Assembly: GCA_026874595.1 (NCBI GenBank)
Contig: CM049309.1
Span: forward strand, 19,657,576-19,721,575
Length of the DNA: 64,000 nt
Reading direction: 5' to 3'
Origin: Sipunculus nudus
Lineage: Eukaryota; Annelida; Sipuncula; Golfingiida; Sipunculidae
Position 1 is the first letter of the stretch. The number at the start of each line of letters is the position of its first letter. The position numbers and the translations under genes were made by a program. The notes below the pieces were generated by a model. The model saw only the letters and a program-made list of their open reading frames with translations. It was not told the origin of the DNA and did not search any database. This document shows, piece by piece, positions 5,027-56,800 of this stretch.

Positions 5027-6132
5027 GTAAGGTAGATCAAAACCGTGTTATTTTTTTTTTTTACTTTGTGAATTTGTGTCATTACATGGAATTGCTATCG
5101 TAACAGTTTATTTTTTATCGTGATACCGAATGACAGCTCGGGGAACAGACGACCCTGAAGTCCTGAACCCAGATAAAATTGCTGTGTCATGAATGTGATG
5201 TGTTTACTTAATATAATAATAACATATTAATATTTCATAATAATAACATATTAATATTTCATGATGTTCAAATCCGTATTGAACAATACCCAGGACAAGC
5301 TTTATAGAATAGCAATAACAGGCCTATGCCGTTATGGCAATGCTATATTAATATTACCGGTACAGGACCGTAGCCTGACCCAAATGGCAGAGGGGGCAGT
5401 TAGCGGAAGCGAAGGGTTAAAACCCCCGAGGGGGAGGGATTGGAAGGGGGTGTTACGGTGTCGAAAATTTTGAATAACTGTAAATATCTACTACTGCATT
5501 CTGAGCATTTTTCCTGTCATTAATTAGTCAATGCATAGAAAAAAATTAGGAAAAAAAGAATATCAACAATGCAATATTTTTTTAGCACCTCAAATACCCC
5601 CCCCCCCCCCCCCATGTGGCCATGCGGTATGTATTTTGTAGGCATGTAATTGTAGTATAAACACAGTACTTGCCAGAATTTTCTCGGAACTAAAAAAAAT
5701 CCTTGTCTTGTGAGACCTGATCGGATTCAAAGTACGTAGATGCTTCTAAACAGGTCGATCGGCACGCTCCTGGCACCCGGCCAACAGGAGCTTCCAGAAG
5801 GCAGAACCCTATCATCTTGAATGATATAGGACGACGTGATCACGCTGGTCTAGTGATCGGCCTACTTATGTTTTCACTTGCGCCGTGTGACTTGTTTAAC
5901 CTTAATATGCCTGAAAAAAATATTGTGTGAATAATACGGGCTTGTCATACACTCGATCACTCACTGAAAAATGTATACGTAGATCCACTGGATGACTGCA
6001 TACATTTTCTCTCCCCCCCCCCCCCCCCCCCCCCCCCCCCCTATTCCAGAAGTTTCTGTGTATCTGTAATGAAGGCTTACTTTACCTGTTTACCAGGAAC
6101 GTTGGGGGGGGGGGGGGGGGGGGGGGGGGGGC

Positions 6133-6826
6133 AAGTTTCTGTGCATCTGTCATGTAGGCAGGCCAACGTATTACTTTATCTGTTTATCTGGCACGGATTC
6201 TGCAGAGATACGGGTGAGGGGAGTCGTATAGATTGTAAGCTTTAGTTCATTTTTTGGTTATTTTCCATAATTGGCACTGTGTGAAGTACCGGTATATACG
6301 TATTAATTATGGGTAGGAACTGTTTGAAAAATCATTTTCGATGATTGAAAAAGATCGATGATCGATTTCTGTGCATCTTTCATGTAGGCAGGCCAACGTA
6401 TTACTTTATCTGTTTATCTGCCACGGATTCTGCAGAGATACGGGTGAGGAGGTCATATAGATTGTAAGCTTTAGTTCATTTTTGGGTAGTTTTCCAAAAT
6501 TGGCACAGTGTGAAGTACCGGTATATACGTATTAATTATGGGTAGGAACTGTTTGTAAAATCATTTTCGACGATTGAAAAAGATCGATGATCGATTTCTG
6601 TGCATCTTTCATGTAGGCAGGCCAACGTATTACTTTATCTGTTTATCTGCCACGGATTCTGCAGAGATACGGGTGAGGGGAGTCATATAGATTGTAAGCT
6701 TTAGTTCATTTTTTGGTTGTTTTCCATAATTGGCACTGTGTGAAGTACCGTTATATTCGTATTAATTAGGGATAAGAACTGTTTGTAAAATCATTTTCGT
6801 TGATTGGAAAAGATCGATGATCGATT
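6133..6826. repeat. three-copy tandem repeat, period about 230 bp
   Basis: Copies begin with 'tttctgtgcatct' at 6136, 6366 and 6595, giving periods of 230 and 229. Each contains 'gcaggccaacgtattact', 'cacggattctgcagagat' and 'agatcgatgatcgat'. The copies are highly similar, so the expansion is fairly recent. A shortened partial copy precedes them at about 6049-6103, between the two homopolymer tracts. Confidence 0.85.
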
Positions 6827-11866: not shown

Positions 11867-13515
11867 TATATAAATATATAAATATTTATATATGTTTATA
11901 TATTTATATATATCCCTGATTTGAAATAACATAAAGTAATGATTACTCTGTTACTGTTTACTTCAGAATTTCTATGTCGAAGCTAAAAGTAATCCCAAGA
12001 TATAAAGAATCTAAAAAGGACTAATAAAAAATGTCTTCATGGGCTTGCAGAATGTAAATGGAGTTCCTTTTTTTAGGTCGCCTGAGCAAGGAAGAAATTG
12101 AGCGCATGGTGAAGGATGCTGAAGAGTACAAAGCCGAGGATGAAAAGCAGAGGGACCGCATCCAAGCCAAGAACAACCTAGAAAGCTACGCCTACAACAT
12201 GAAATCAACAGTAGAGGACGAAAAACTGAAGGACAAGATCTCAGAAGACGACAAAAAGCAGATAATCGACAAATGTAACGAAGCCATCAGCTGGCTGGAT
12301 TCTAACCAGGTACGTTAAATATGCATAAGAAATAGTGGTCTGTTCCTATTCCTCTGTGAAAAAGAAAAAATATAGGATTCGTCTGTTCCTTTAATTTTTG
12401 CAAACACTTTTGAAAAAGGAAAAAAAATAAAGCAATTGTCCTTCCTTTAATTATTGCAAACAATTTATGAGGAAGAAAAAATAACGGATTCATCTGTTTC
12501 TTTACCTTTTGCAAACAATTTGTGAGGAAGAAAAATTAATTCATCTGTTCCTTATTTTTTTTCAAGCAATTTGTGCAGAAGAATAATATAGGGTTTTTCT
12601 GTTTCTTTAATTTTTGAAAACACATTTTGAGGAAGGAAAATAAAGAATTTGCTTTTCCGTTATCCCTCATTCAGTCCATTTTATTAGTTGGAAAGTTTTG
12701 TACGATTCATGTCTGGTAGTATTGGCTAAATATTAAAGTCCAGTTTACTGCAAGAAATTGTTTCTGGATACATTGTTTCAACAATTTATAGAATAAACGT
12801 CTTTGAAGCAAACAAGTAAGGCTGTTAAACACCTGAGAACATGCTGAAATCTTTTGATCAGCTTCCTTTACTGATGGTTAACTGTAATTGCAGGACCAGT
12901 TTATTAATCAAATGTAGTTGATGGTAGGCTGCTGATGTATAAGAAAATTTCCAAATAAAACTAAAACAACAGGAGGACAAACCACGGCAAAATAATCTAC
13001 TAGATCAGCCACATCATCCAGGTCCACAACAAAATTTGACGTGGTCTTCTCTGTCCCATGATCCATCCTTCCACTAAGTTTCATAGAAATCATAGAAAAT
13101 TGATTTTGCACTCTGTATTATTCAGAGGAATAAAAATTATCAATCAGTCAATCCTGTGTAGATTTAACATGATACTTCAGCTAAGATACAAGCATTCAAA
13201 CATTAGTTATTACAGAACTTCCTTGGCAGCAGAGTACTTGTACCCACAGTACTCTGTAAGTGATACGTATTCACAAAGTAAACCTATATTTTTCTGTGTC
13301 TTCAACAGCTTGCCGAAAAGGAAGAATACGACCACCAGCAGAAAGAAATTGAAAAGGTGTGCATGCCAATCATCACCAAACTGTACCAGGGTGCAGGTGG
13401 CGCACCTGGTGGCATGCCCGGAGGTATGCCTGGAGGCATGCCCGGAGGCATGCCCGGAGGAGGAAGTGCGCCATCTGGTGGCAGCGGTGGACCAACCATC
13501 GAGGAGGTGGACTAA
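7820..13515 (+). CDS. HSC70: heat shock cognate 70 kDa protein (HSC70, HSPA8-like), six coding exons
   Basis: Cytosolic/nuclear ATP-dependent Hsp70 chaperone that folds and remodels client proteins with J-domain partners and exchange factors. Coding exons: 7820-8024, 8694-9608, 10516-10718, 11326-11524, 12077-12309, 13309-13515. All phases join, giving 653 aa, normal for the family. The ATPase domain has IDLGTTYS at residues 9-16, [14 protein letters not shown] near 197-210 and [15 protein letters not shown] near 334-348. The basic stretch [16 protein letters not shown] lies near 258-273. The substrate-binding domain starts in exon 4. The C-terminus has four GGMP repeats and ends in EEVD, the cytosolic TPR-cochaperone signal. 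The ATG at 7820 follows an acceptor at 7815 and opens [12 protein letters not shown]. The intron after codon 68 also occurs in vertebrate HSC70. Introns mark it as a cognate, but heat-shock elements lie upstream. Introns contain (TA)n and G/C tracts. Confidence 0.97.
9867..9929. repeat. paired poly(dG)/poly(dC) tracts in HSC70 intron 3
   Basis: A run of 16 G (9867-9882) is followed, after 29 bases, by 18 C (9912-9929). The transcript could pair these into a G:C hairpin. The rest of intron 3 (9609-10515) shows nothing recognisable. Confidence 0.85.
11541..11620. repeat. (AT)30 microsatellite followed by (GT)n, just after an HSC70 splice donor
   Basis: Thirty AT units (11541-11600) and a GT-rich run (to 11620) begin only 17 bases after the exon 5 donor at 11525. 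A second (TA)n block of about 47 bases lies at 11818-11864 in the same intron. The remainder of the intron is featureless AT-rich DNA. Confidence 0.9.
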
Positions 13516-30540: not shown

Positions 30541-30900
30541 ACTCATAATGTCTGCAAGGTGGGCGTGAGAAACTGACATGTTGTTGAATGTTTGCAAAGT
30601 GGGCACGAGCGACTGACATGTAGATTAATGTCTGCAAAGTGGGCGTGAGAGACTGACATGTGGTTAAAGCTTTTCAAAGTGGGCGTAAGAGACTGAAATG
30701 TGGTTTGAAGTTTGCAAAGTGGGCGTGAACGACTGACATGTGGTTCAATGTCTGGAAAGTGGGCGTGAGAGACTGACATATGGTTCAATGTCTGGAAAGT
30801 GGGCGTGAGAGACTGACATATGCTTTACTGTCTGCAAACTGGGCGTGAACGACTGACATGTGGTTCAATGTCTGCAAAGTGGGCGTGAGGGACTGAGATG
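30541..30900. repeat. 40-bp minisatellite, nine units without indels
   Basis: Nine units of exactly 40 bases (30541, 30581, and so on to 30861), with a core of 'gcaaagtgggcgtgagag' followed by 'actgacatg'. Changes between units are substitutions only. The open frame across it on the minus strand (HVSRS...HAHF) is a by-product of the repeat, and 40 is not a multiple of three. Confidence 0.9.
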
Positions 30901-31342
30901 TTGTTTCAAAGGTTTAAAGGAGTAGTAGAGTCTCAGGTCTTCCTTTTGAAACCACTTTACTTGGCCAATCAAAGATATAGGTGTGATATTACATTTTTAC
31001 CTGTCTAGATTTGGTGTTGCATTTATATCCTCATGTCAATATAGGTTAGAATTTGAGAAAAGAGAAGCATAATTCCCCATTTTTGGTCTCGTCATTTGTG
31101 ATAATAATAATTCTTACGGTGGGGATAAGTAGAATGTCTGAATGGTATATGACTCACATGAAACGTGGCGTTTTTTTGTAACTATTGGGTCCAGAAAACT
31201 TTTTAGTTTAAGAATTTCCTGGTTATATTTCGTAAGGTTTATAATTAAGATGATTTTTATAACAAAATATTGGTCTGATAAAAAAGGATAGTCAATTTTT
31301 TAATTGAAAAGTGAGCCCTGTATAATGTTAGACACTCCATGG

Positions 31343-34012: not shown

Positions 34013-37000
34013 AAAGAAAGGCACAACTGGGTCTATGTTTTTACCATCGCTCTATCGGAGGCATTACCCGTCCTAGCATGTTCATAGGGTGTAAGGGTGT
34101 GGTATAGATAAGTTACCTGTAACGCCAGCTTGCCATATGCCATCCGCCGACCCCCACACACCCGTCAGGACCATTGTGTAAATCAGGGTGTCGGGGCTCC
34201 AGAACTGTAGGGCTACCAGAACGCTTATATTAGCGCAGGCGGCGTATGTGAAAAAAGGCGTGATTCCAATATGTTTCTCCAAACGTCCAAACAGGAGCGA
34301 TGACACAGAGTTCATCACACCCACCATTGAGAGACAGTAACCCACCATTCCGATCCCTAAATGACAGGTTATCACAGCCTAAAAGGGAAACAAAAGGTTA
34401 TATTGCATGTAAGATTTAATATTAAAAAAGTTTACTAAACCTTTTCGAGGTTAAGGAGGTAGTGTTTTCACTTGTGTTTGTGTGTGTTTGTTGGTTTGTT
34501 TGTTGTGCCTTAACATGATAATCGACAGTACCGTAGCCTCCCGGGGGCGGGGGGGGGGGGGGGGGGGGTCAGATGCGAGTATTCTCAGGCAAAAAGGTTA
34601 CCCTGAAGCCACGTAAGTTTCTGTGATTAGCGCTTATATTATAAGAAAAAATACCAACAGAAATGCCAAATTATAGCATGTATTCAAAAAATGTCCACGC
34701 CGTAGGAGAGGAATTCCTCGCAGTGCTTCGCTCTAAGAAAGCATTTACTGCCTCTCTCCTCCTCAGACTTTTCTCAGGCTACGGCCCTGATCACGTGGAT
34801 TTAGTGTGATTGTTTGCCTTGATGGAGGTGTGCGCTCTATTGACTGCCATTCTGGTTTATGTTTTCTGTCGTCAAAATATTAACAAGAAAGCAACTACAT
34901 TATTGTTTTCTTAGGTTACAGCGCTGAATGAGGGTTCGTGAGAAGTTACATTAAGCAATTGGTATACTTTATAATAAACATGTTTAAATAAAGGATCATT
35001 AAACAGGTTTTTTTTAAGAATCTATGGTGTCCCTTATTCTAAGCTCAAAGTTTACACTTGTTAATCTTCTTATGTTTTATTTTCTGTTTGCTTTTTTTTA
35101 AAACCATTACGGATTTCCTAATCAAAATAAATACAAAAAAGGAAGCCTTGAACTGGCTTGTAAACAAGGGAAATAAAGGAGAGCATATAAGGATACTATG
35201 TTTGTGTTATCCCCATCGCTCGTATTATTGCATATTTTAAAGGATTTTTACCTGCATGATCCATGCGTCTTAGAGATTAGAATAACCGATTTCCGTTGAT
35301 GTGATATGGGGAAGTGAACATTGCAGAACAGAAGAAAGTAATAGGGAATACATGTTTAAATGTTCATATATTGTATATAGAAGTTGGACCTTTTAGCAGT
35401 TTGAATAAAAATGTTTCCAGTGATAGTTTTTCTTTCAAGTTTCAGTGGATAAATGGTGCTGGTGAACAGGACTATTTTGCGAAGTCTGTGGCACATTAAG
35501 GAACGAATATTTATTTCGAATTTACACATCAACCTCATTTTACCACCATATTAATATTTTAAGTGAACATAATTAAAACACCTGATGGAAACCTTTTTTT
35601 CTGATGTGGACAATATGAAATCATCACACTATAATATATAACTTTAGGAAACAGGTACATTAGTGCTAAAGTGATATGTAAATATGATAAATTGAACAAA
35701 GGATTTTAAAATCACATTGATTTACACGGGGGTCAAATTGGTTGAAACCATTCAACATAAATGAATTAGAATTCGATATGCGTTTATCTTCTGGAAGGGA
35801 TAATTATAAATCATGAATCCATTGCAAATTTTTCACAAACCTACAAATAAAAAAATGTTGTCAAATTTCCATCCATACGATCGGGTTCAGTTCAATTTTG
35901 TGGGCATATTATTATGAAACTCGAAACTGAAAGATCTATCGAATACACAAATTATAATATTTTACCAATATACCTGTAAACTAATACGAGTGAGTTGTTT
36001 TAAAATACAGTTAAAAGAAAAATCCAATTATTATGAGTAATTGTATCTTATTTTATCAGCGGCTCACGATTTATAGCGTTCATACCTGAGTAAACTCTCC
36101 ATATATCCACGTCTGCTCCAAACCGATGTAACCTAGCAACGGCATCAATGGTAACATTCGAGGTGACACTAGCAGCCGTAAGGTATCCAAAATCGGCTGG
36201 CACGTGACATCCTCTCCACCTGTCACTGGTCCCCCGTCCCTGCCGTCATTACCATTGTTATTTGTGACATCGTCTGAAGGGCAAATTTCACTTGTTTCTA
36301 ACGTTTGACAATTCCTTCGTAGAACTGGTCTATAATTACGATGGTCTATGGGGTCAAGAAAAGCTAACACAAGGATGAGTCCCATAATCACAACGAGTAG
36401 AAACACCCCAAGCATGATGTATATTTGCACATCTGGTATTGTTTGGTTGAAGATCTGAGACATTTTAGGGCAAAACTGAATTCCACATTTTATATTATTT
36501 GTTGCTGTCGAAGAATCATTTGATTTGTACGTCAGTATGGCAGATGAAATAAGATTTCCCCATATATTACTTGTCAGGAATATAGCAAAGAATACTCCAC
36601 TCATACTGGATACAGTGGCTAGTGTATCCAAATCAAAGTTTGAAGCGTACCTCAAAGCGAGGCTGGTGACGTAAGACCCTTGAGCCGTCCAAATTGGTCC
36701 AGTAATGAGACCCACAAAAATCCCTGCTGGTATCAGAGTTGGAAACGCAGGATAAAAATTAGCACCAACAAATATAACATGTACGAACATACTGATAGCT
36801 AAAGAGGTTTTATAACCAAGATGGTATATAATGGATGGAGCCACTATGCAAGAAATCGTAGCGCCGCTGTATACTCCAGTCAAAGTGGCGACACCTAGCT
36901 CTCCTTCTTGGTACAAACTGCTTTGTAAATTTTGTAAGGCCATATATGCAGAAAAAACTAGCGTAAACGAGCAAGCCAGGATGACCAAATTTTTCCACAT

Positions 37001-37105
37001 GCGTTGTTGCGAAGGTTCTCGAGTCACGATAGCCCGTGTGCGTGCACTGGGTAAAGCCCCAAAATCCGATATTTCGCTGGACAACAAATTGTCGCTCTCT
37101 GCCAT
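33267..37105 (-). CDS. UNC93-like multi-pass membrane protein (UNC93A type), three coding exons
   Basis: Member of the UNC93 branch of the major facilitator fold. Relatives regulate potassium channels (C. elegans unc-93) or carry Toll-like receptors (UNC93B1); the role of the A type is poorly defined. Coding exons: 36086-37105, 34117-34378, 33267-33484, phases joining, 499 aa. Exon 1 has a soluble N-terminus, then LACSFTLVFSAYMALQNLQS and the typical GVYSGATISCIVAP. It then has several membrane spans, a glycosylation-prone loop (NDSS, NQTI) and an acidic loop. Exon 2 has LGIGMVGYCLSMVGVMNS and LLFGRLEKHIG, both like UNC93A. Exon 3 has AFGYSGALCMVVKTYITLG near the end. An in-frame TAA lies two codons before the chosen ATG. 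A (TA)33 tract fills part of intron 2. The next gene upstream on the same strand is an OATP transporter, with no sign of co-transcription. Confidence 0.9.
33944..34009. repeat. (TA)33 microsatellite in the UNC93-like intron 2
   Basis: About 33 uninterrupted TA units, roughly 110 bases beyond the exon 2 donor of the UNC93-like gene. The first intron (34379-36085) contains a poly(dG) tract at about 34551-34568 and nothing else recognisable. Confidence 0.9.
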
Positions 37106-39661
37106 ATTTTAAGCTGAAATTCGAACCTACCTCCAAGAGTGGGTCCAAAGTTTTAACATACACAGGAGACGGAGCAATCCAGTCAGAAGTTGTAGGTTTA
37201 ATTCTTATCAATGCACTCTGGACGCCAGGAACAGTGGTATATAATACCGATATATACTAATGATTTATTTAATAAGCGTCAGTTATGTTTACAAGGTACG
37301 TTCACCGCATAACCCACAGTGAACGCGGAAGCAACATGAGACTGCACTGTGTGACGTCACATTATATGGGTATGGACCTTTTGACAGGGGGAAGTGGTTT
37401 AATAAATGACCGGGGAATTTGGTTTTATTTATATACTACTGTATAAGAAACCATGTGCAGAGCTTATCATGGAGTTTATGTGCGGCCTGTCATGCGTCTC
37501 ATTAATTTTATCTCAAGTGTGGTTAAAAGCAGGATAACTGATTATTTGTTTTGTTTTATCAGCGAAGTTAAAATATAAGGACAATCACGTACGCATGTGG
37601 TCTGGTTGATAAATATTTGATTACGAACAAAGGTCTTCTTGTCTGATTACACTGTGGTTTTTGCAATTTGACCTTAAATAGTTTAATTCTTTATTTTTGC
37701 TTTTATTTAACAGAGGTTTTTTCGGACAACAGTTTTTTGTTGGGGTTTCGATTAATGATATGTACGCAAACAAGTTTATGTGTGTGTTATAGCCATGTTA
37801 ATAAACAGATTATTGGCAAATGACAACATAATCCCTTTGTTTAGGGTTTACAACCTTTAATACACAGTGAAACCAGATTGGTTAAAGTCAACTATCAGCA
37901 GCTGAATAAACCAGGTTTGGTTGGTTCATATGTGTCCAACCAATAAACCGGTTAAACTGGCCAATGTTTATTCATCCATCCATGCGAAACGGTTATACAT
38001 AATCAGAATCGGTTAACTAAACCTGGCTTGCATAAACAATTGTAGAACAACCAATTTAAAAATAGTTGCATCAGTTGTTTGTAGTTTTGTATATTATTTG
38101 GTTATATGGGTTTGCACTAGGTTTTCAATTATATTAATTATATAAAAAGTTGTAGAGCCCATGTAAAATAAATAAGTTTTGTTCATATTAAATGTGTTAA
38201 AGTTATGTTTATGAAATATTTACTAATAGGCCTATATAATTCATATTAGATGTACTCTACATTACAGTATTGGGTATATTTAGTATGTACAGATTTTCAT
38301 TTTCATTTGGTATTGGAATCTTGGATGTCGTCAGCAGGACCGGCTTCAGTGGTTTATGGGTTGTACATAGGTCTTAAAGCCAGGAGAATCGTAGACGAGG
38401 CGCTGAAATTTTTATCCGTCGGTTGTCATGCAGGGTGAGCGTTGCAAGGCTAATGGCATAGCCATTCCATACGGCCATGTTTAATGCACAAACTATTACG
38501 CCTACGGGCCGAAGGTGCAGTAGTCGCCGGGCTTAGCTAACACCAGGATATATAATGAGAGAAAGGGTGTGCTACTGCCCTGTCAAGTAGTCTGAAATCA
38601 GAATGGAATTCTGCAGATGTACTTTCTTCGTTAAGCTAGCATTGAAACATGGAGGCAGTTAAAAAAAAAAACAACATTGTTGGTCTTGAGACTGGTGTTG
38701 GTCTAGACCAATTTCCCGGGTTGTCGGTCTTGGTCTCAGCTGAAGATGGTTCAGGTTTTGTAAAATATGTACCATTCTTTAGCTGTCCCTGCTATTATGT
38801 TTTTTTCCCATTAAGATTTCCCAAACAGATTCCTGATTTATGCCTGTGGGCATGTGTTTGTATATGCGTGCGTCAGGGTTTCTGCTTGTGTTTATTTGTA
38901 TTTTTGTTGGAAAGATTCCATGGGTCTTAGCGGAATCCGGTCCAAAACAAGTTAGCATGGTCGTTATCAGTCTCTCAGACTTGAATAAATAATCATTTAA
39001 TAACTCTTAACATATCAACTAATTTTACTTGCAATCTATGTTATGATTGACGGTTTTCACACGAGACTTTTGTCACGCGTCTCCATGGCCACGTCCCGTA
39101 TATGCACATGTTTGGTCTTGATCTATCGGGATTGATGCAGAGTGTATCCTAAAGGGGGTCATTTGGCATATTTTCACCTAAATCCTGTGATATTTCACTT
39201 TAATTTTCAAGGGGCGATTGCAGCGGTAACTACGAGTGAGTATCAAGATCGAGAGCAGTTTGTAACTCGGTATCAGGGTCTGAGGCCATCTCATAGTGTC
39301 CAACATCATAAAATGTTCAGTTAATCTAAGAGCATCAACAAAAAAAATTAAAGTTACTGTATGTGGTTGGTAATAAATGTTAAGTTATTCAAAGACCATG
39401 TATGATGAAAGCTTATAATTGTGCTTTCATTTTAGCCTTCGGACAGTCCTAACACCTTCGATTGGTATGAAAACAATACCAAGCAAAGGGGTAAATAACA
39501 TGTATAAGGACAGTATGTATTTTGAATCAGCCCATTAAAACGTGGTTTGCTATTACTGGTTGCATACATTTGTGTACCATTTAAACATTTTAAATTTTCA
39601 AAAATTGTTAAGATTTCATAGGAAAATGAATATGAATGTAAAAAATATACCACCAGAAAGA
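37106..39661. other. intergenic region between the UNC93-like and OATP genes
   Basis: It should hold the UNC93-like promoter and any 5' UTR exon. A weak acceptor-like AATTTCAG lies about 12 bases before the ATG. No other gene, RNA or classifiable repeat is visible. The open frames at 38250-38440 and 38649-38930 lack homology cues. Confidence 0.45.
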
Positions 39662-39775: not shown

Positions 39776-42700
39776 TTGTTAAATATTCTGTGGGAGACTG
39801 CTGTATCAATAGGGCACAGTTCATATTCTGTCCATGGGCACTGTATTTTTTCTTCTTCTCGTTTTTCCATGCACGTATAAAAGCTCCATTGTATAGGATA
39901 ACAGATACAACTTGAAGGGCGAACTTTATGACATGCATGGTTATCCTGATATCATGGCGGCTGTACAGGAAACATGCACCCATTTCCTGTGACGTACTTC
40001 CGGGAGAATCAAGCAGGCAGATACTATCGATTGCACGTCCGAAAATATAAGGATTTAGTATAGCTATAAAAGAAATTTTTTTAACAGTCAATTCCATAAA
40101 AAGTAATATGACAGAAGTAAAACATACACAATTAACTATTTATCTAATTTATCATCAATATGTTAACTTATTCGTTTTGTATATTTATGGTTGATTTTAT
40201 ATTTAATTATAAATAAACATTTTTGTAAGTGGACATAAGGCATTTCTTACGTTTGGTCCTTTGTGTGTGCCTTAATGTGTGTGTGTGTGTCTGATTGAGA
40301 TAAGTGTCTGCCACCGCAGCTAAGATACAAGATACATCCAGCACAAAAAAGTGTATTAAAAACTGCAAGACTAAGAGCGCGGTCTCTCTTTTCTGTCATC
40401 CTAAAATACATAAAAAAATTTCTTCAGAGATTAAAACGCAGGTATACCGTAATTGTCGTCAATAATCATTTAAAGAGTCGATAAAACATGTCATTATAAT
40501 ATTAAATGTGTACTGGAATGACACACAAGAGTTGCCAAGTCTGTGTCGCAACAACTTTACATCAGTGACCGGTTTTAAAACCGAATGATAAAAGTACCTT
40601 TACCCTTTCGCTGAAGAACAAAGCGGTTATTAACACTCTTCAGGAGTAATATGTACACAAAATATCATGACAATCCCTAAAGCATTTACTGATAATTCTC
40701 GGCTTTTGCATGTATTTTACTAATAAGATTTTTAACCACCCAAAGTACTCAAAACTGTAATTTTGCCCCTATAGTCGGACCAAAATCGGTTACAGAGACC
40801 TCATTTCATGTCTGCTGAGAAATCCCATCATGATTCGCCTTAATGTGAAGCTGGAGATTTTATTTCTAACGGTTAAGATTCGTTCCCTGCTGAAGGATGA
40901 ATCAATGGCTTCATTATCTCACCCTCAAAATTACAAGTTACAGGGAGTATATATGTCACAGCGACCTACTTTTGAGCTTCTTAAGACAGTGGCGTCAATT
41001 TATTTTCAAGGGTGAGATGATGACCCGCCGGCGTGGAGGAGGGGGGGGGGGGTTAAAGTTAGGACAACTTCTATCCGAAGTATAATAACACACGAAGGGG
41101 CAGATCCAGGATACTGGAAAGGGGAGAGTCCAACCGACAAAGGATCCCCGAAATAAAATCTTTTTAAACAACTCACCAAAAGTTGTTTCGCCACCTAGGA
41201 CCCCCTCCCCCCGCCCTCGTGGACCACCTACTGACGAAACTAACCTCAAGAAGTTGTTCATTGAAGGGACGTTATAAAAATTCCAGCACAGCATCCACAG
41301 TAATAAAAGCAGAAGGAATGGTACAAAGTTAGAACAGGAAGCGTCACACAGTCCTTTGGTGGCTGTCCCGTCAGGAATACATGAGCAGTCCTCGTACACC
41401 TGATAATTAACATATATATAGAATATAATACCCAATCTCAAGGTGTTCAGATGACATGGGTAACATTTTCTACCGGACATAGGTTCGGCAAGGGAGAAGT
41501 GAGAAAAATCATTGGACTACATGAGCAGTCCTCGTACACCTGATAATTAACATATATATATAGAATATTATACCCAATCTCAAGGTGTTCAGATGACATG
41601 GGTAACATTTTCTACCGGACATAGGTTCGGCAAGGGATAAGTGAGAAAAATCATTGGACCTCTAGGATTTTATAGAACCCTTTTTAATGAAAACCCGTTT
41701 CAATTTTACGAGTATAATGTATTAAACGGTATTGTACACATTGTACGATTTTAAAATGTATTATTCCAAAGGGATCTCTCACATAAAAATGGACTACATG
41801 CCTTGATTATTATTTTATTGTCCCGCAAATAACCGGACCCCTAAGAGTCTGTTGGTCAGGGTTATTGGTCATTACTACCACACTGCCCAGAATGAAACTC
41901 CCAATCTGTTGGTTAGAGTTAGTGGTCGTTACGCCTTCCCATCGGACTCCCAGGTGTCTGTTCGTTAGTGATAATGTTCGTTACACTGCCCAGAATTGGA
42001 CTCCCAAGTGTCTGTTGGTCAGGGTTATTGGTCGTCACACTGCCAAGAATTGGACTCTCAAGAGTCTGTTAGTTTGAGTTAGTGGTCGTCACAGTCCACA
42101 CTGGCCAGAACCGGACTCCCAAGAGTCTGTTGGTCAGGGTTAGTGGTCGTCATACTGCCAAGAATCGGACCCCCAAGAGTCTGTTGGTTAGGGTTAGTGG
42201 TCATCACTACCACATTGCCAAGAATTTGTTGGTTAGGGTTAGTGGTCGTTACGCCTTCCCATCGGACTCCCAGGTGTCTGTTCGTTAGTGATAATGTTCG
42301 TTACACTGCCCAGAATCGGACTCCCAAGTGTCTGTTGGTCAGGGTAAGTGGTCGTCATACTGCCAAGAATCGGACCCCCAAAAGTCTGTTGGTTTGAGTT
42401 AGTGGTCGTCACAGTCCACACTGGCCAGAACCGGACTCCCAAGAGTCTGTTGGTCAGGGTTAGTGGTCGTCATACTGCCAAGAATCGGACCCCCAAGAGT
42501 CTGTTGGTTTGAGTTAGTGGTCGTCAAAGTCCACCCTGGCCAGAACCGGACTTCCAAGAGTCTGTTGGTCATGGTTAGTAGTCGTCACACTGCCAAGAAT
42601 TGGACTCTCAAGAGTGTGTTGGTTAGAGGTGGTGGTCATCACTACCACAATGCCGAGAATCGGACTTCCAAGAATCTGATGGTTAGGGTTAGTGGTCGTC

Positions 42701-45700
42701 AAACTGGCCAGAATCGGACTCCCATGAGTCTTTTTGTTAAGGTGAGTGGTCGTCAAACTGCCCAGAATGGGACTCCCAAGAGTCTGTTAGTTAGGGTAAG
42801 TGGTCGTCAGAGTCCACACTGCCCTGAACCGGACTTCCAAGAGTCTGTTTGTTAGGGAAAGTGGTCGTCAGAGGCACTACTGCCCAGAACCGGACTCCCA
42901 AGAGTTTGTTGGTTAGGGTGAGTGGTCATCAAAATCCATATTGCCTGGATTCGGACTCCACAGAGTCTGTTGGTCAGGGCAAGTGGTCATCCCAGTCAAC
43001 ACTACCTAGAATCGGACTCCCAGGTGTCTGTTGGTTAGGGTTAGTGGTCGTCACACTGGCCATAATCGGATCCCCAAGAGTCTGTTGGTTAGGGTTAGTG
43101 GTCATCACTACCACATTGCCAAGAATCTGTTGGTTAGGGTTAGTGGTCGTTACGCCTTCCCATCGGACTCCAAGGTGTCTGTTCGTTAGTGATAATGTTC
43201 GTTACACTGCCCAGAATTTGACTCCCAAGTGTCTGTTGGTCAGGGTTAGTGGTCGTCATACTGTCAAGAATCGGACCCCCAAGAGTCTGTTTGTTTGAGT
43301 TAGTGGTCGTCACAGTCCACACTGGCCAAAACCGGACTCCCAAGAGTCTGTTGGTAAGGTTTAGTGGTCGTCATACTGCCTAGAATCGGACCCCTAAAAG
43401 TCTGTTGGTTTGAGTTAGTGGTCGTCACAGTCCACACTGGCCAGAACCGGACTCCCAAGAGTCTGTTGGTCAGGGATAGTGGTAGTCATACTGCCAAGAA
43501 TCGGACCCCCAAAAGTCTGTTGGTCAGGGTAAGTGGTCGTCACACTGCCAAGAATTGGACTCTCAAGAGTCTGTTAGTTAGGGTAAGTGGTCGTCAGAGT
43601 CCACACTGCCCTGAACCGGACTTCCAAGAGTCTGTTTGTTAGGGAAAGTGGTCGTCAGAGGCACTACTGCCCAGAACCGGACTCCCAAGAGTTTGTTGGT
43701 TAGGGTGAGTGGTCTTCAAAATCCATAATGCCTGGATTCGGACTCCCAAGAGTCTGTTGGTCAGGGCAAGTGGTCATCCCAGTCAACACTACCTAGAATC
43801 GGACTCCCAGGTGTCTGTTGGTTAGGGTTAGTGGTCGTCACACTGGCCATAATCGGATCCCCAAGAGTCTGTTGGTTAGGGTTAGTGGTCATCACTACCA
43901 CATTGCCAAGAATCTGTTGGTTAGGGTTAGTGGTCGTTACGCCTTCCCATCGGACTCCAAGGTGTCTGTTCGTTAGTGATAATGTTCGTTACACTGCCCA
44001 GAATTTGACTCCCAAGTGTCTGTTGGTCAGGGTTAGTGGTCGTCATACTGTCAAGAATCGGACCCCCAAGAGTCTGTTGGTTTGAGTAAGTGGTCGTCAC
44101 AGTCCACACTGGCCAAAACCGGACTCCCAAGAGTCTGTTGGTAAGGTTTAGTGGTCGTCATACTGCCTAGAATCGGACCCCTAAAAGTCTGTTGGTTTGA
44201 GTTAGTGGTCGTCACAGTCCACACTGGCCAGAACCGGACTCCCAAGAGTCTGTTGGTCAGGGATAGTGGTAGTCATACTGCCAAGAATCGGACCCCCAAA
44301 AGTCTGTTGGTCAGGGTAAGTGGTCGTCACACTGCCAAGAATTGGACTCTCAAGAGTCTGTTAGTTAGGGTAAGTGGTCGTCAGAGTCCACACTGCCCTG
44401 AACCGGACTTCCAAGAGTCTGTTTGTTAGGGTAAGGGGTCGTCATACTGCCCATAACCGGATCCAAAGAGTCTGTTGGTTACGGTCAGTGGTCATCACAG
44501 TCCAACCTGTCTAGAATCGGACTTCCAAGTGTTTGTTGGTTATGGTAAGTGATCTTCACCCTACACAGAATCGGACTCCCAAGAGTCTGTTGGTTAGGGT
44601 TATTGGTCATCACTACCACACTGCCCAGAATCTGACTCCGAAGGAAGGGTCTGTTGGTTAGGGTAAGTGGTCTGGTCACACTGCCTAGAATTGGACTCCC
44701 AAGAGTCTGATGATTAGGGTTAGTGGTCATCACCACCACACTGCCCGGAATCGGACTCCGAAGGTGCTCTTGCTTAAAGTTACTGGTCTCGTCACACTGC
44801 CCAGAATTATACTCCCAAGAGCCTGTTGGTTAGGATTTGTGGTCATCACAGTCAACACTGCCCAGAATTGGACTCCCAAGAGTCTGTTGGTTAAGGTTAG
44901 TGGTCGTTACATTGCCCAGAATTGGACGCTCAAGCGTTTGTTGATAAGGGTTAGTGGTCTCGTCACACTGACCAGAATCGGACTCCCAAGGGCCTCTTGG
45001 GTAGGGTTAGTGGTTATCACAGTCAACACTGCCAAGAATCGGACTCCCAAGAGTCTGTTGGTCAGGGCAAGTGGTCATCACAGTCAACACTGCCTAGAAT
45101 CGGACTCCCAGGTGTCTGTTGGTTAGGGTGAGTGGTCATCACAATCCATACTGCCTAGAATCGGACTCCCAAGAGTCTGTTGGTCAGGGCAAGTGGTCAT
45201 CACAGTCAACACTGCCTAGAATCGGACTCCCAGGTGTCTGTTGGTTAGGGTGAGTGGTCATCACAATCCATACTGCCTAGAATCGGACTCCCAAGAGTCT
45301 GTTGGTCAGGGCAAGTGGTCATCACAGTCAACACTGCCTAGAATCGGACTCCCAGGTGTCTGTTGGTTAGGGTGAGTGGTCATCACAATCCATACTGCCT
45401 AGAATCGGACTCCCAAGAGTCTGTTGGTCAGGGCAAATGGTCATCACAGTCAACACTGCCTAGAATCGGACTCCCAGGTGTCTGTTGGTTAGGGTTAGTG
45501 GTCGTCACACTGGCCATAATTGGATCCCCAAGAGTCTGTTGGTTAGGGTTAGTGGTCATCACAACCACATTGCCAAGAATCTGGTGGTTAGGGTAAGTGG
45601 TCGTTACGCCTTCCCATCGGACTCCCAGGTGTCTGTTCGTTAGTGATAATGTTCGTTACACTGCCCAGAATCGGACTCCAAAGTGTCTGTTGGTCAGGGT

Positions 45701-48700
45701 AAGTGGTCGTCATACTGCCAAGAATCGGACCCCCAAGAGTCTGTTGGTTTGAGTTAGTGGTCGCCAAAGTCCACCCTGGCCAGAACCGGACTTCCAAGAG
45801 TCTGTTGGTCAGGGTTAGTGGTCGTCACACTGCCAAGAATTGGACTCTCAAGAGTGTGTTGGTTAGAGTTGGAGGTCATCACTACAACAATGCCGAGAAT
45901 CGGACTTCCAAGAATCTGATGGTTAGGGTTAGTGGTCGTCACACTGGCCAGAATCGGACTCCCATGAGTTTCTTTGTTAAGGTGAGTGGTCGTCATACCG
46001 CCCAGAATGGGACTCCCAAGACTCTGTTAAATAGGGTAAGTGGTCGTCAGAGTCCACACTGCCCTGAACCGGACTTCCAAGAGTCTGTTTGTTAGGGTAA
46101 GTGGTCGTCAGAGGCACTACTGCCCAAAACCGGACTCCCAAGAGTTTTTTGGTTAGGGTGAGTGGTCATCACAATCCTTACTGCCTAGAATCGGACTCCC
46201 AAGTGTCTGTTGGTCAGGGCAAATGGTCATCCCAGTCAACACTGCCTTGAATCGGACTCCCAGGTGTCTGTTGGTTAGGGTTAGTGGTCGTCACACTGGC
46301 CATAATCGGATCCCCAAGAGTCTGATGGTTAGGGTTAGTGGTCATCACTACCACATTGCCAAGAATCTGTTGGTTAGGGTTAGTGGTCGTTACGCCTTCC
46401 CATCGGACTCCTAGTTGTCTGTTCGTTAGTGATAATGTTCGTTACACTGCCCAGAATCGGACTCCCAAGTGTCTGTTGGTCAGGGTTAGTGGTCGTCATA
46501 CTGTCAAGAATCGGACCCCTAAGAGTCTGTTGGTTTGAGTTAGTGGTCGTCACAGTCCACACTGGCCAGAACCGGACTCCCAAGAGTCTGTTGGTCAGGG
46601 TTAGTGGTCGTCATACTGCCAAGAATCGGACCCCCAAGAGTCTGTTGGTTTGAGTTAGTGGTCGTCAAAGTCCACCCTGGCCAGAACCGGACTTCCAAGA
46701 GTCTGTTGATCAGGGTTAGTGGTCGTCACACTGCCAAGAATTGGACTCTCAAGAGTGTGTTTGTTGGAGTTGGTGGTCATCACTACCACAATGCCCAGAA
46801 TCGGACTTCCAAGAATCTGATGGTAAGTGGTCGTCAAACTGCCAAGAATTGGACTCTCAAGAGTCTGTTGGATTGAGTTAGTGGTCGTCACAGTCCACAC
46901 TGGCCAGAACCGGACTCCCAAGAGTCTGTTGGTCAGGGTTAGTGGTCGTCATACTGCCAAGAATCGGACCCCCAAGAGTCTGTTGGTCAGGGTTAGTGGT
47001 CGTCACACTGCCAAGAATTGGACTCTCAAGAGTGTGTTGGTTAGAGTTGGTGGTCATCACTACCACAATGTCCAGAATCGGACTTCCAAGAATCTGATGG
47101 TTAGGGTTAGTGGTCATCACTACCACATTGCCAAGAATCTGTTGGTTAGGGTTAGTGGTCGTTACGCCTTCCCATCGGACTCCTAGTTGTCTGTTCGTTA
47201 GTGATAATGTTCGTTACACTGCCCAGAATCGGACTCCCAAGTGTCTGTTGGTCAGGGTTAGTGGTCGTCATACTGTCAAGAATCGGACCCCTAAGAGTCT
47301 GTTGGTTTGAGTTAGTGGTCGTCACAGTCCACACTGGCCAGAACCGGACTCCCAAGAGTCTGTTGGTCAGGGTTAGTGGTCGTCATACTGCCAAGAATCG
47401 GACCCCCAAGAGTCTGTTGGTTTGAGTTAGTGGTCGTCAAAGTCCACCCTGGCCAGAACCGGACTTCCAAGAGTCTGTTGATCAGGGTTAGTGGTCGTCA
47501 CACTGCCAAGAATTGGACTCTCAAGAGTGTGTTTGTTAGAGTTGGTGGTCATCACTACCACAATGCCCAGAATCGGACTTCCAAGAATCTGATGGTAAGT
47601 GGTCGTCAAACTGCCAAGAATTGGACTCTCAAGAGTCTGTTGGATTGAGTTAGTGGTCGTCACAGTCCACACTGGCCAGAACCGGACTCCCAAGAGTCTG
47701 TTGGTCAGGGTTAGTGGTCGTCATACTGCCAAGAATCGGACCCCCAAGAGTCTGTTGGTCAGGGTTAGTGGTCGTCACACTGCCAAGAATTGGACTCTCA
47801 AGAGTGTGTTGGTTAGAGTTGGTGGTCATCACTACCACAATGTCCAGAATCGGACTTCCAAGAATCTGATGGTTAGGGTTAGTGGTCGTCACACTGGCCA
47901 GAATGGGACTCCCAAGAGTCTGTTTGTTAGGGTTAGTGGTCGTCAGAGGCACTACTGCCCAGAACCGGACTCCCAAGAGTCTGTTGGTTAGGGTTAGTGG
48001 TCGTCAGAGTTCACACTGCCGTGAACCAGACTCCCAAGAGTCAGTAGGTTAGGGTGAGTGGTCGTCACAGTCCACACTGCCCATAACCGGACTCCCTAGA
48101 GTTTGTTTGTTAGGGTTAGTGGTCGTCAGAGGCACTACTGCCCAGAACCGGACTCCCAAGAGTCTGTTGGTTAGGGTTAGTGGTCGTCAGAGTTCACACT
48201 GCCGTGAACCGGACTCCTAAGAGTCTGTTTGTTAGGGTTAGTGGTCGTTGGAGTCAATACTGCTTAGAACCGGACTCGTAAGATTCTATTGGTTAGGGTA
48301 AGTGGTCGTGTGAGTTCACACTGCGGTGAACCGGACTCCCAAGAGTTGGTTAGGGTTACACATATGGCGCAGGGAGCAATGTAGTGAAGAAATTAATGTA
48401 GCCCGTTCAAGTTCGTTTGATAAGAACTATTTCAAGGCAATAAGGTACATAAACATGGCTGTTTTGGGGTAAGGCATTCACGGAATAAGTAATATTTTGT
48501 GTTAAACGCATGTGAAATGTAAACAGAAGGTGATTCCTTGAAATGTAACAAATTTTGATTTTAAGGTTTTACAGTTTAGACACGTAGAGTAAAAACGTCC
48601 TCTGGCGGAAGAGTGGCTCGAACCACAATTTGTCGTTCACAGAGTTCGTAGAAGAATATATTTTTTTGGTTTGGCTCAGTAAAAATTTGGAACGAGAAAT

Positions 48701-50763
48701 ACGATAATAACTTCGATAATGATCATTTATTTTATATTGTAATTCTGTTTCTAATTCAAACATTTAGAAAATGTTTTCAGTGTAGAAAGAAAAAATTTAA
48801 GACATTTAAACCCAGAGAAAATATATGTTTGATTGCAATTAATTGAACTTATATCAATTAAAATAATGTTTGTTCACTAGAAAGGAAATGCACTTGAAAA
48901 ATTTTATGCAGAAAAAAAAAACTGAAATGGCCATGCTAAAAGGTAGTCTACGCATGCATATGGACTACTCATGCGCACAACGCATGAGTGGAAACAATCC
49001 AGTTAAAACAAAAATGTAATTACAGATAAGAACGTTATCATGGAAACAGTTTAAAACTGTGCAGAGCGATTTTTTTCTACGCATACGGGCGCTGTATATC
49101 GAAACTGGCTTTAGGTCTAAAATGAAAAGTACCCGAATTTTTAGGTAAACTACACAAAAGAGCGGCGTTGGCGGAGGTATGCACTTTCTCGGGTGATCTG
49201 TAGTGCTGCTTGTTTCTGCAGCTGGTAGAGAGCATTTACCTGTGTGGTAGCGTTGTTCCTAGTCCCGGCACAGGCCGCGTGGCACGCACTGTAGTACATT
49301 TGACCATCTGTACCGCACACTGGATCAAACTCAACCATCGGGCACGAGCAGTTTACATTACACGGAACGGTCAAGGTCACACTGGAAGGTCAAATATACA
49401 GGGACCGGTCAAGGTCACACTACGCTCCAAATTTTAAATCTGAAGAAAAAGTTTGCTCACTTATTGCTGGATATAATTTAAAAAGGTGTAGCTTTATAAT
49501 CAGTTCTAAATTTAAAAATGGATCGAAAAATATACTCACTTGTCTCCATGACGACCAGCTATGGGTATCTCTGAGCAGCCAAGAAAGATAAGCCCAAACG
49601 ACGCCAGGAGTGCCACTGTTGCCATGGAAGCAACGAGGCGGGTGTAGTTAAATACTGTGTGGGTTTTCATTTTTGATGTACAAGCTCCACTAATCATAGA
49701 CGCGGCGAGGCTCGTGACGGACGGGACTAATCCTGTTAATAATGAAATAATTGATTCAGCAGTGTTGACCTGTTTCAAAGTGAGCAGAAAGTAATAATTA
49801 CTCTGTTAGTGTAACTTCAGAATTTTAAATTTCAAAGGCAAAAAATTCTCTCAAGATATAAAGAAAAAAAAACATTCAATTAAACAATCCTATTAAATAT
49901 TTGAATATAATGTGAAACTTGTGTAATAAGAACACATATGGGACTGGCAAAAAGTGCTTTTAATTCACAGGTGGTCTCATAGACAGGTCAATTATAATCA
50001 AAGTGAATACATTTGGTTTATTCAAGGTTGGTCTTAATAGACAAGTGGTCTTATTAGACAAGTGGTCTTATTAGACAGGTGGTCTTTACGACAGGTTGCA
50101 CTGTAAATATAAAATAAACGTTTCATTATTGACTATATAATATCACTTTAGAATCATTTTAGTACATTATTCACTATTTGATAAATAGTTTATCTGAGGT
50201 CTCCTTGCTGTGAAGAGAGAAAAGCACTATTGTGCAAGTAGTCTCATACACAGACACACGGTAGCCCTTTGCAATCCCCCGGTGAGCCCGTGGAAGAGGC
50301 TAATTTTGCAAGTTACCTCCGAGAATACTGGCCATGTAGGCAGACTGTTGAAATTGGACCTCAAGGTATTTCAGTAGAAATATTAAATATCCAATCTGCA
50401 TCAGGTCCAGGTATAAACCGAAAGCGAAGAGCACGTAAACCTCATTAGTGGCCAGGCGCTTCAGAGCTCGTGGTAGATCTGAAAAAAAAAAGACTGATAA
50501 AATAAAAAAAATCAACATCCGATATGAAATTTATTTGTCGACCACAGACATTAAGTTAAGTGAACATTGTTTTCAGGGTTTAAACATTTAAAATCCGGAC
50601 ATAAATAAACGTCACATCTAAACGGAATAACTCATGGTAAACACTCTTGTGTTCTTATATTCATAATTGAAAAAAAAGATGTTTTGTAATGACAAAGACT
50701 TTAAGTCTTCCACACTAGACAGCCTGTACGAATTATGCCTGTAAGACTTTAATGAATTCGTGT

Positions 50764-50805
<42 letters not shown>

Positions 50806-53800
50806 CAGAGAGGGAACCACCTGACATGTCTTCGTTCAAAGTCGGCACAAAAGCGTCACTTTCTCTTTCAGTATTATCTGCAGACTTGTCCCCTTGATGA
50901 TGCTCAAACTCTCTCGGAAACATGAACATAGGTATGCTCAGACAAGCAACTGCGCATGCGGTGATGACGTAACCAAGCCACCATGCTCCGATCCACATTG
51001 GATGCTCGGGGGTCAGGTCAGTGTCTGTATAATATGGTACATACAACAACTACAGATAAAATAAAACAACCCCCCAAAAAAGCCCGATTTCGGTATAATT
51101 ATTATTTTTTTTTTCTTTTTCTTTTTTTCTTCTTTTTTTCCTTTTCTTTTCTCGAAAGATGTCTCAGAATACTGTATATAATTTTTTTTTATATTATCCT
51201 TTTTATCATCGACATCTCCCGGAACTTGATATACAGACATGTACATGCATGCAATAACGACAAAGTGTCCACAAAGATAAGGGTATTTTTCCTTAAAAGA
51301 AAACTAATTACATCGGCAGATTAATGGCTCTCCAATTTTGGTAAATGCACTTTCACTGTATTATTTTCCGCGACCAATCTTTCCATACTTTCGATGGTAC
51401 AGACTTTCTTTAAGAAAAATGACAGAGGCGGGGTTTCTTTATCCCGGCTTTTGAATAACACAAACATATAAATCAATATGAAGATATCAATAAGCGTTTT
51501 CCTTTCATTTTCAACATCACAACCAACATATACAATCTTTGGACAGAGTGCGGGTAACATGATTCCAAATTTTCCGGCCCACGTCTGAATTTGATTATAG
51601 AATGTAACAGCAACATGACATTCACAAAAAAGATGAACCGATGATTCAATATCAGTAAAACAATAAGAGCATTTATTGGTTTCAGATATTTTCCATGTAA
51701 ATAACAATTCATTGGTTGCTAGAATATTATGCAGTATTTTAAATTGAAATTCATGCAGATACATATCACGAGTTGTATAGAGTACATGAAGTGCAGCATC
51801 TTTCAAAGTTAATTTGTCGTTAAATAAATTTTGGAGTTTCTTTATAACTATTGGTTCTGATGTTTTATTTCGCAGAATATGGGTGTATAAGTGCTTAAAT
51901 CCCAACTTGGTCAACTCAAAAATCCTACCACTGATTGGTATTTTCAGCTGATTTGAGACATAACTATTAAAATCTTGAACATCATTGTTATTTTTCAAGA
52001 TTGTAATCCATTGCTGTGGTATTGCCTTTTGAATGGAAATCCAGTATAGATACAATTTTTGTATTCTTTGCTGGAACAGTCAACTATTTCTGATAGATAT
52101 TTTAAAGAGCCATCGGCGTTATATAGATGATACAGAAAACGTCTCCCTATTTTATCTAGAAAACCAAAATAGACAGATTTTTTATCAACTTTGATGTATT
52201 GATTATTCCAAATTTGCTGCAGAATAACTACCTCCGCAGATTGTGGGTCAGTAGATGTATACTTATCCCAGACGGCGAAACAATGACTGTAGAATTTAGA
52301 AATTTTTCGTGTGATACAACTAATATCAAAAGTAACCCCCATGTTTTCTATACCACCCACTCTCTGTAGATAGAAATTAGGTACAACTGTGCTTTTTAAA
52401 TTTGCCAAGTGTTTTAATCTGATCAGCCAAGATATTCTTTGACATTCTAAAATAGTCTAAACATCTGGTAATTTTATACCTCCATTTTCTGATTCACTTA
52501 TCAGCACATCATATTTAATTTTCGGCTTCCGGCCATACCATATAAAATCAACAATGCAGTTTTTCACCTTTTTGATAAAACGCCTTGGGGGTTCAAGAAT
52601 AATCATAGTGTACATTAGTTTTGATATTCCGAAGGTTTTAATTATCGTGTTTCGCCCAAATATTGTCAGCCCTCTCGATTTCCACATATTAAACGTTCTT
52701 AAAATATTATTATAAACTTTTTCAAAATTCAACTCGTATGACAAAATCATCCCTGTATGTAAACCATATACCTAGGATTTTTATAGCATCGGAATGAAGG
52801 GCAACCCATTTGATATTGTTTGAATATTCTAGCGTGTTCTTTCTCCTTCCCATCCAAGCGGCTTCACATTTGTTGAAATTCACATTCACTGAAGATATCA
52901 TTGAAAAATCATTTAAAATTTGCAGTTATGCCCCCATTGATTTCAAGTCTTTTAAAAAGAATGTGCTTTCATCGGCAAAGAGACATTGTTTTAATTCAGT
53001 GCCGTTTATGACGATACCTTTGACCAAGTTGGATTGACGGACCATAATTGCCAATATTTCAATCACCAACAAAAATAAGTAAGGCGCCAACGGATCACCT
53101 TGTCTTGTTCCTCGCTCTAATTTAAAATACCCTGTGGTATAACCGTTGTTTATTATGCAGCTTTCTAATCCGTTATGTAATAATTTAATCCAATCAATAA
53201 ATGTATTTTCAAATCAAAATTTACGTAATACAGTAAATAAAAATACATAATCAATTGAGTCGAACTCTGCCGCAAAATCGACGGCAAATAAGACAGATAT
53301 CTCATTTTCTATATAACAATAGTCTATTATATCGCTGATCAGTCGAGTTGTATCAGATATCTTTCGATCCTTCATAAAAGCAGTTAGATCCTCGCCTATA
53401 AGACTAGGTAATACTCTCTTAATTCGTCTAACTAGAATTTTACTTAAAATTTTGGAATCAACATTAACTAAACTAATGGGTCTCCATGATGATAAGTGTC
53501 TATTGTCTTTACCAGGCTTCTCTTTCAACGTAATAACAGCTTGTCTTTGACTTGTCGTCAATAATCCCTCTTCAAAACATACATTAAAACATTCCAAAAG
53601 GTCATCTCCTAAACAATCGAAAAAGGTTAAGTAAAACTCATTAGGCAGACCGTCGTTTCCTAGCGTCTTGTTATTTTTCATCTCATTTAAGGCCTCTATT
53701 ATTTCAGTTTTGGTAACAATACCTTCACATAATTTAGATTCATTTTCGGATAATTTGGGCATGTTCAAATTAGAAATGACATCTAAACAATCTATTTCAT

Positions 53801-56800
53801 CAATATCTCTTTCCCTAGCATACTTTTTTTCTGAAAAAATAATTTGATTTCTTCCATGATGCGAACTGGATTTGTGATTTCATTATTAGATATAAATAGT
53901 TTCCTTATCGTTGTTTTCTTTTTATTATGTTTCTGCATATTAAGAAAAAAATTAGAGCTACGTTCGCCCTCCTTAAACCACTGTACTCTAGATCTGACTA
54001 TCAGTCCTTGGGTATGTTTCTCATAATATTCTTCAACTTCTTTTCTTATATGATTATACTTTATATGGTTACATGAGTTGGCTGATAATTCATTTTCCGC
54101 TTGCAGAAGTTGTTGTTCTAGGAAACGTAATTTCCTTCTTTCATTTTTTTTTGTTTATTCTTACAATATCTCATAGTAAATGTTTTTATTTTAAACTTTA
54201 TATATTCCCACCGTTGTTTTGCTTTAAGTCCATTTTCCTCCTCGGTTCTCACTACTTTGATATATTCTTTCATTTCTTTTATATAATTCTGATCTTGTTG
54301 GAGGGAGAGATTAAACTTCCAGTGGGACGGTCCGTGTGTAAGGTTATTTATTGAACATATATCTGCGATAACAGCTGAATGATCAGTCAAGACAGCTGGA
54401 ATAATTTGCACATCTTTTACAATGGTATTTAATTCAGAACTAACCAATAAGAGGTCCAATCTACGCTGTTTGAAGGGATTGAAAGATCGCCATGTATAGT
54501 TACGAGTAGACGGATTTCGAATCCTCCACAGGTCAATGAGATCAAAATTAGATTTAAAAAAATTCATGAATTTAACGGATTTTATTTTTAGACTATAATT
54601 TTTTTCCCCTGCGTCGAGACTTGATAGGCACATGTTAAAATCCCCACCCCATATAATTTGTGTCTCTTGATCTGTAACCATGTTTTGCAAATATTCTCTC
54701 ACAATATTGAAAAATAATATTTGTTGATGTTCCGTGTTTGGGACATAAGTATTTAAAATAATAAACAAAGAACCTTGAATATTCGCTTTTATAAAAAAAA
54801 AGTCCATGCTCATCTATTTTACTTTCAATTTCAGCAAAATTAAGATTATTTCCAATAAGTGTTAATACACCCCTTGCTAGGTTAGTTCTGTGAGAAAAGA
54901 AGGTGAAACCAGGCCAGTCTTTTCTCCATTCATTTTCTATGTCCTCAGTACAGTGTGCTTCCTGTAGAAACATAATGCTATCCGCACCTCTTTTGTTTTG
55001 TAACCAATTATATAACTCCCGTCTTTTCTTATTATTTCTAATACCCCGCACATTTAAGGTGACAATAGAGAATTTTAGCATAGGTCGGTTTTCTTAATAA
55101 AAAAAAATATATAAATAGTGATTTCCTTTTTTTACAGTATTTAAACATTTTTCCCGCTTCCATGTAATTTGTTTATTACACTCACGGATCTCATTTTCTC
55201 ATATGTAAAGACACTGCCTATTCCAATGTAATGTTAATAAGGTACAAGAGAATATAACAAAGCAGTGGCATGTAAATGCCTGAATGAATTTAACAAAGTA
55301 ATTATATATATAAATAAATGAATAAGTGTATATGTGTTTTAGTATGGCGCCTTTCGGGCGAATATATCCGGTTATTATCCCGAATAGTGCCGAATTCTGA
55401 AAAGGAATAATTGAATAAGAGAAAGCAATCTTATTTCTGCGTTGAATTTCAGATCGAATAACTCAATCTGACAGAAGCCGAAAAGAATGTTTTAAGAGAA
55501 ACAAGGGGACAGGAAGACCGGCTCCTTCTATTTTTATATTTCAGATAAAAGTCGGTTAAATAAGACATATTCAAGGTGAATTTACGCAGATCGTTATCTC
55601 AAAGTGAAAAAAAACTATCCAAAGTGAATAATTAACCTTTTGTAACATATCTTTAACATGTATACAGATTGGTGATAAACAATCGAGGTCACCTGTTGAC
55701 TCTCATTACCTTGGAGTAGACGTGAGTTAGGGTTGTACTCTGGTGTGTTGGACACCCAGGGATTGAGCAAACGTAATGGGTGGATTACGTCTCAACTCCT
55801 CTAGTCAAGCATAAAATTTTGTGCCGGCAGTGAATCGCAGTACCTTTGATGTGCGATCTCTCACGAAAACAACACCATCCTTTGTCCAACAATCGTTAAT
55901 GAGGTTGTCACGCTTCATGCTTTGAGCCGAACGGAGCATATTCAGTCTAGTCTTTGTGAGATCCTCATTCAAATAGAGACCTTTACCCTGATCCCCGGCC
56001 ACTCTGAGGCGAGCTTTGCCTTTCATGAAAGCCAGTTTTGTTTTGTCGGACAAAATCTTGACAAGAATAGGTCTCGGCTTGCCCCCTGGCAGGGGTCTAC
56101 CTGTTCTATGGGACCTGTCAATATCGTCCTTACTGATATGAACATCCATCAGATTCTTGGCCATGTCTATAACTAATTTGTCGATGTCCTCACCCCTATT
56201 CTCAGCCCATGTATTTGTTATCCTAACAGATTTTCTCCTCGAATACTGTTGTTGACTGTCAATTTCATCTTTCATCTCGCAAACTGTGTTCTCCAAGTCC
56301 ATCACACGTGTTGTAAGTTGTTCAACTTTCTGTATATAGTCTTTCAACTTTTCCTCAACCGCTGCATCCACGATAGTTTTCAATGAAGTTTTAATAACTT
56401 CAGATTTCAGAGCTGCCTCTAAATATTTTGTAAATTTATCACAGTCACTTATCACAATAGTCTGATCACGTCCAGTTTGTTTTGGTTTTTGGCTTAAATT
56501 AGACAGAGGATATTCATCAGAGGATTGATCCATATCACTCATATTGATATCTTTATTTGGACATTTTTTATCTTAATGGAATGAATTACTACCAGAGGAG
56601 TCGCTATGAACTCGTTTCTTATCTTGGTTACACCGGATAGTGGTATAATGATTTCGGTATAATTAGTATCATTAAGCCGAAACACGCTGCACTGCCAGTC
56701 CTTGGGTTAAACATGGTAATCAACTAAACTAACCACATGAATTGTCTAAAATGCAAAAGATGCAGCTTATCCCCGTTAGTGATTCATTCACCTGGACAGT

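Follow-up and report, generated by a model that had tools for sequence, protein, structure and literature searches.

A nested minisatellite with a telomere-like motif in an OATP intron of Sipunculus nudus

A tandem array of about 6.5 kb lies in an intron of a predicted transporter gene of Sipunculus nudus and its repeat unit resembles the telomere repeat, which raises the question of whether the array has a role connected with this motif or with the splicing of its host gene, or is an ordinary minisatellite in which the motif is incidental. The locus was analysed in a window of 64,000 nucleotides (GCA_026874595.1, contig CM049309.1, positions 19,657,576 to 19,721,575 of the forward strand) and all coordinates given below are those of this window.

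The host gene and its intron

Pieces of the OATP profile lie collinear on the minus strand together with a Kazal segment, identifying the host as an OATP (SLCO) gene. Pfam matches place profile positions 1-176 at 58.2-59.0 kb, 196-257 at 50.6-51.0 kb and 278-336 at 50.3-50.5 kb; positions 323-394 (49.5-49.8 kb) overlap the preceding profile piece and fall below the Pfam cut-off as a fragment. In the exon that precedes the intron, the Kazal-encoding (Kazal_2) part, identified by profile and PDB matches, occupies 49240-49383, and is followed on the same strand by the next OATP exon (41244-41399, profile 431-486) and by profile positions 509-542 (39.8-40.1 kb), each of these two being below the cut-off as a fragment. 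The larger open frame around profile 431-486 scores 26.6 bits, just above the Pfam cut-off of 25.8 bits. The intron between the two exons (41400-49239, minus strand) is 7840 bp in length with GT and AG ends, and the array with its 6528 bp makes up 83% of it.

In the PDB, the Kazal exon scores best against repeat proteins named Cake, through short and weak matches added up across copies, and OATP chains come next, an example being 9qzo_A (E 8.1e-6). Compared alone with the PDB, the exon that follows the intron gave no OATP chain and two matches to another protein, both with an E-value of 1.1; its assignment to OATP comes from Pfam. An earlier note on this DNA had placed the array between two Kazal-loop exons of an OATP gene; a position between the Kazal exon and the next OATP exon (profile 431-486) was borne out.

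LINE-like pieces (51324-54813, minus strand), with endonuclease, reverse transcriptase and zf-RVT in separate open frames, also lie between exons of the OATP gene and share their strand. The window additionally has an UNC-93-like open frame (36083-37108, minus strand) and an HSP70-like open frame (8648-9625, plus strand).

Units and higher-order blocks of the array

Segmentation by wrap-around alignment to a 54-base consensus resolves 41831-48358 into an unbroken run of 117 pieces, of which 115 are full units; the pieces at either end, of 10 and 20 bases, are excluded from unit counts. The full units span 45-61 bases and 78 of the 115 are distinct. Lengths of 61 bases (44 units) and 54 bases (43 units) predominate, the others being 60 (10 units), 52 (6), 45 (6) and various (6). 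Between 41834 and 48309 Tandem Repeats Finder lists overlapping repeats with periods of 54, 61 and 115 bases, and both methods confirm the earlier description of a minisatellite of about 6.5 kb with units of about 54/61 bases. The G+C content is approximately 50% in kilobases fully within the array versus 29-46% in those fully outside. Minisatellites are defined by units over 6 bp (PMC6857246). The array has tandem units above this size and extends over kilobases, and shares with minisatellites or VNTRs with higher-order blocks its variant units and nested block duplication; no tested feature of it departs from this kind.

Clustering of the units, with a dot standing for an unclustered unit, gave the order A, BCDEDF, BCDEDEDGHIJKLMNF, BCDEDEDDJKLMNF, BCDEDEDDJ and eleven diverged units, followed by MOMOMOMNF, BCDEDGHIJKOMNF, BCDEDEDGPEDDGF and BCDEDEDGPEDDGHKJ.KJ.. 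in the remainder of the array. A higher-order block of 14-16 units has seven starts in this order and is complete, from B through F, in the four copies at 42218-43118 (16 units, 901 bp), 43119-43905 (14 units, 787 bp), 45573-46358 (14 units, 786 bp) and 46359-47130 (14 units, 772 bp), the second and fourth being recovered by lag analysis also. On the basis of the clustered unit order, these are length variants of one block. The remaining three starts comprise a short block, BCDEDF (41901-42217, 317 bp), and two that run into other units: a truncated block of 9 units (43906-44410), which is 99.6% identical to the preceding block over 505 columns, and the last block, whose start (47131-47857) is 99.86% identical to the preceding block over 727 columns. 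The eleven diverged units, all but one of which are unclustered, lie at 44411-45046. They are followed by a two-unit block in three successive copies plus one unit (MOMOMOM, 45047-45473), identified by lag analysis and clustering, which is the source of the 122-bp period.

All of the nested periods noticed earlier, of about 122, 772 and 787 bases, were recovered as lags with few mismatches: 2 in 347 bp at lag 122 (99.4% identical), 1 in 795 bp at lag 772 (99.9%) and 10 in 900 bp at lag 787 (98.9%). An older lag of 3240 has 49 mismatches in 1057 bp (approximately 95% identical). Identity between blocks ranges from 86.3% to 99.9%, and duplications of different ages therefore lie side by side. 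Comparison of the first five units from each of the seven blocks gave a mean of 2.5 edits in block register (105 comparisons) and 14.2 out of register (420 comparisons), so that the multi-unit blocks are more alike in register than out, as is characteristic of a higher-order repeat. The long blocks are near-identical, as had been claimed, and the identity of the youngest pairs means that copying was recent, provided that the assembly is right.

The CpG observed/expected ratio is 0.47 in the array and 0.80 in the remaining window, and of the 447 changes from the array consensus 90 are C>T and 73 are G>A, the two commonest classes. Methylation would account for both features.

The telomere-like motif

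The unit consensus holds GGTTAGGGTTAG, which is (GGTTAG)2, or two permuted hexamers. The exact word occurs 20 times in the window, with all occurrences in the array and none beyond it, and was found in 0 of 200 Markov sequences matching the dinucleotide make-up of the array. The earlier statement that units carry two copies of the telomere repeat consequently holds for the consensus and for 20 of the 115 units, and fails for the other 95. Complete TTAGGG hexamers nowhere follow one another directly and TTAGGGTTAGGG has 0 occurrences in the window; as a hexamer run of the kind expected in an interstitial telomeric sequence, the permuted (GGTTAG)2 of 20 of 115 units is at the lower limit. Human short interstitial telomeric sequences are described with 2-25 copies in PMC6410037, and the two permuted hexamers of the 12-mer sit at the low end of this range. 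The array differs from such sequences in that each unit has a single 12-mer, which is broken in 95 of the 115, and in lacking any longer hexamer run. PMC2820488 was considered as a precedent and dropped, as its telomere-like motifs belong to separate Arabidopsis-type clones.

For a (TTAGGG)n 12-mer in one random unit of like make-up, a formula puts the chance at about 5e-5 and shuffling puts it at 2.7e-5. Since it is this unlikely in one unit, a chance origin must allow for how many minisatellites a genome has and for the selection of the locus by the earlier reader; across so many minisatellites, such a 12-mer would not be improbable.

Conservation of the motif within the array was assessed in two ways. 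With duplicate units removed and unit kinship otherwise ignored by the statistic, the 12 columns of the motif have the lowest mean identity of all (54th of 54 circular 12-column windows), at 0.851 versus 0.905 in the other columns of the 78 distinct units. By whole-word intactness the 12-mer ranks 26th of 43, which is poor and not the worst, and its 9-mer core TTAGGGTTA ranks 35th of 46. Selection on the motif received no support from either test and was rejected. The word YTAGGGTTR, which we take to be a telomere-repeat protein site, is found 26 times in the array, always on the plus strand and with successive sites 45 to 775 bases apart, and once in the rest of the window. A three-G quadruplex pattern has 0 matches on either strand of the array, and looser two-G patterns have 14 matches on one strand and 20 on the other. 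With the motif intact in so few units, its columns the least alike and no tandem TTAGGG pair, the telomere-related role raised in the earlier note is unsupported.

Splicing, origin and rival explanations

The transcript of the gene contains the CCCTAA-like strand of the array, referred to here as sense. GTRAGT is absent from the sense strand of the array and occurs 26 times on the antisense strand. Among 239 YAG sites on the array sense strand, 3 have 11 pyrimidines in the preceding 16 bases and none has more, versus 5 of 19 sites with 11 in the 882 intron bases that separate the array from the Kazal exon. The sense strand also has 158 CTRAY (branch-point-like) and 21 CTAACCAACAG words, and a splicing effect of the array is conceivable because the former are plentiful. 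With RNA folding of 11 fragments, the sense strand is at the level of Markov sequences (mean z 0.17), and the antisense strand folds slightly better than they do (mean z -1.26), with 11 of 11 fragments below zero. DNA folding of six array fragments (z -0.82 to 1.77) is within the shuffle range.

The length of the array alone may have an effect, as reported for the intronic VNTR of ABCA7, the length of which is reported to correlate with exon skipping (PMC5954066; PMC6857246). Both are kilobase-scale intronic minisatellites in a transporter gene; however, the ABCA7 unit is 25 bp with high G+C, whereas the array described here has units of 54/61 bp with about 50% G+C. A tandem duplication of 140/142 bp (41374-41659), detected by Tandem Repeats Finder and sequence comparison, copies the acceptor TTATCAG together with the first 22 exon bases. 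From the upstream copy, with its first base at 41539, the frame would go 30 residues and then reach a stop (open frame 41450-41611). Judged from these sequence features, the duplicated acceptor near the array would be a better splicing lead. It is hardly credible that the 26 TTAGGGTT-type sites act together as a telomere-type Myb platform in the transcribed gene, with array length tuning the choice between the acceptors at 41399 and 41539 and so setting the yield of transporter mRNA.

The array is probably a minisatellite of the ordinary kind with higher-order repeats nested in it, which expanded within the intron as entire blocks were copied in tandem and in which the telomere-like motif is incidental. 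This motif bears no sign of purposeful retention, so that the array resembles any common tandem repeat, and further support comes from the unbroken segmentation, the recurring BCDED...F order, the closer likeness of units in block register, the near-identity of the young blocks, the lack of three-G quadruplex patterns and of sense GTRAGT, and other minisatellites within the same 64 kb. The units form one family of about 54 and 60/61 bp, and misaligned blocks would have been copied through unequal exchange or slippage in replication. The 12-mer may already have been there in the first unit, either by coincidence or because a short stretch was inserted early on, and would then have drifted. The array would have no specific action except to lengthen the intron, and its length probably varies between individuals. 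Counted against this explanation are the rarity of the 12-mer, its not being the worst word by intactness, the antisense folding and the two-G quadruplex patterns. No Rfam family reached its gathering score anywhere in the window.

That the array is instead one locus of a dispersed satellite, or a piece of a tandem-repeat-bearing mobile element that landed in the intron, is possible though unlikely: its length, homogeneity and sharp edges would fit, as would the LINE-like element in the same gene, but the flanks 41300-41840 and 48340-49260, each searched separately, have no inverted repeats and exact GGTTAGGGTTAG is absent elsewhere in the window. An assembly artefact, such as two haplotypes placed end to end, could produce the adjacent and nearly identical 772 and 787 pairs, which are judged here from the assembled sequence; however, older blocks at 86-95% identity keep the same unit order, which makes the higher-order structure independent of the young pairs, and an artefact is considered improbable. 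The same low standing is given to the idea that a short piece of telomeric DNA, inserted when a break was repaired, seeded the unit before amplification. Telomeric repeat insertion at breaks is described in PMC6410037 and the two permuted hexamers of the consensus are rare by chance in one unit, but the match is limited to 12 bases with no flanking trace. A functional array, either binding telomere-repeat proteins or altering the splicing of neighbouring exons, could draw on the excess of YTAGGGTTR words, the CTRAY and CTAACCAACAG words of the sense strand and the ABCA7 precedent (PMC5954066), an intronic VNTR that affects splicing. Against these stand the lowest mean identity of the motif, the lack of sense GTRAGT, YAG pyrimidine counts that peak at 11 of 16 and sense folding at the Markov level, leaving such a function very improbable.

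A literature search with four 15-mers of the unit returned nothing related by title, and searches found no paper joining TTAGGGTTAG with minisatellite, repeat unit and intron, nor one on minisatellites or tandem repeats in introns of the oyster genome. Exact unit words had 0 matches in viral contigs and 0 in bacterial and archaeal genomes, which informs little on the host given the make-up of these collections. As an ordinary minisatellite, the array is a well-ordered example of growth by copying blocks of blocks, and is usable as a length marker and as an assembly test. If its length altered splicing, it would be a parallel to the ABCA7 case in another transporter gene.

Other repeats in the window include minisatellites at 30547-30905 (40 bp x 9) and 12362-12649 (approximately 54 bp x 5.3). 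At 6013-6826, a run of 29 C (6013) and a run of 28 G (6104) are followed by three copies of a 229-bp unit with 94% matches.
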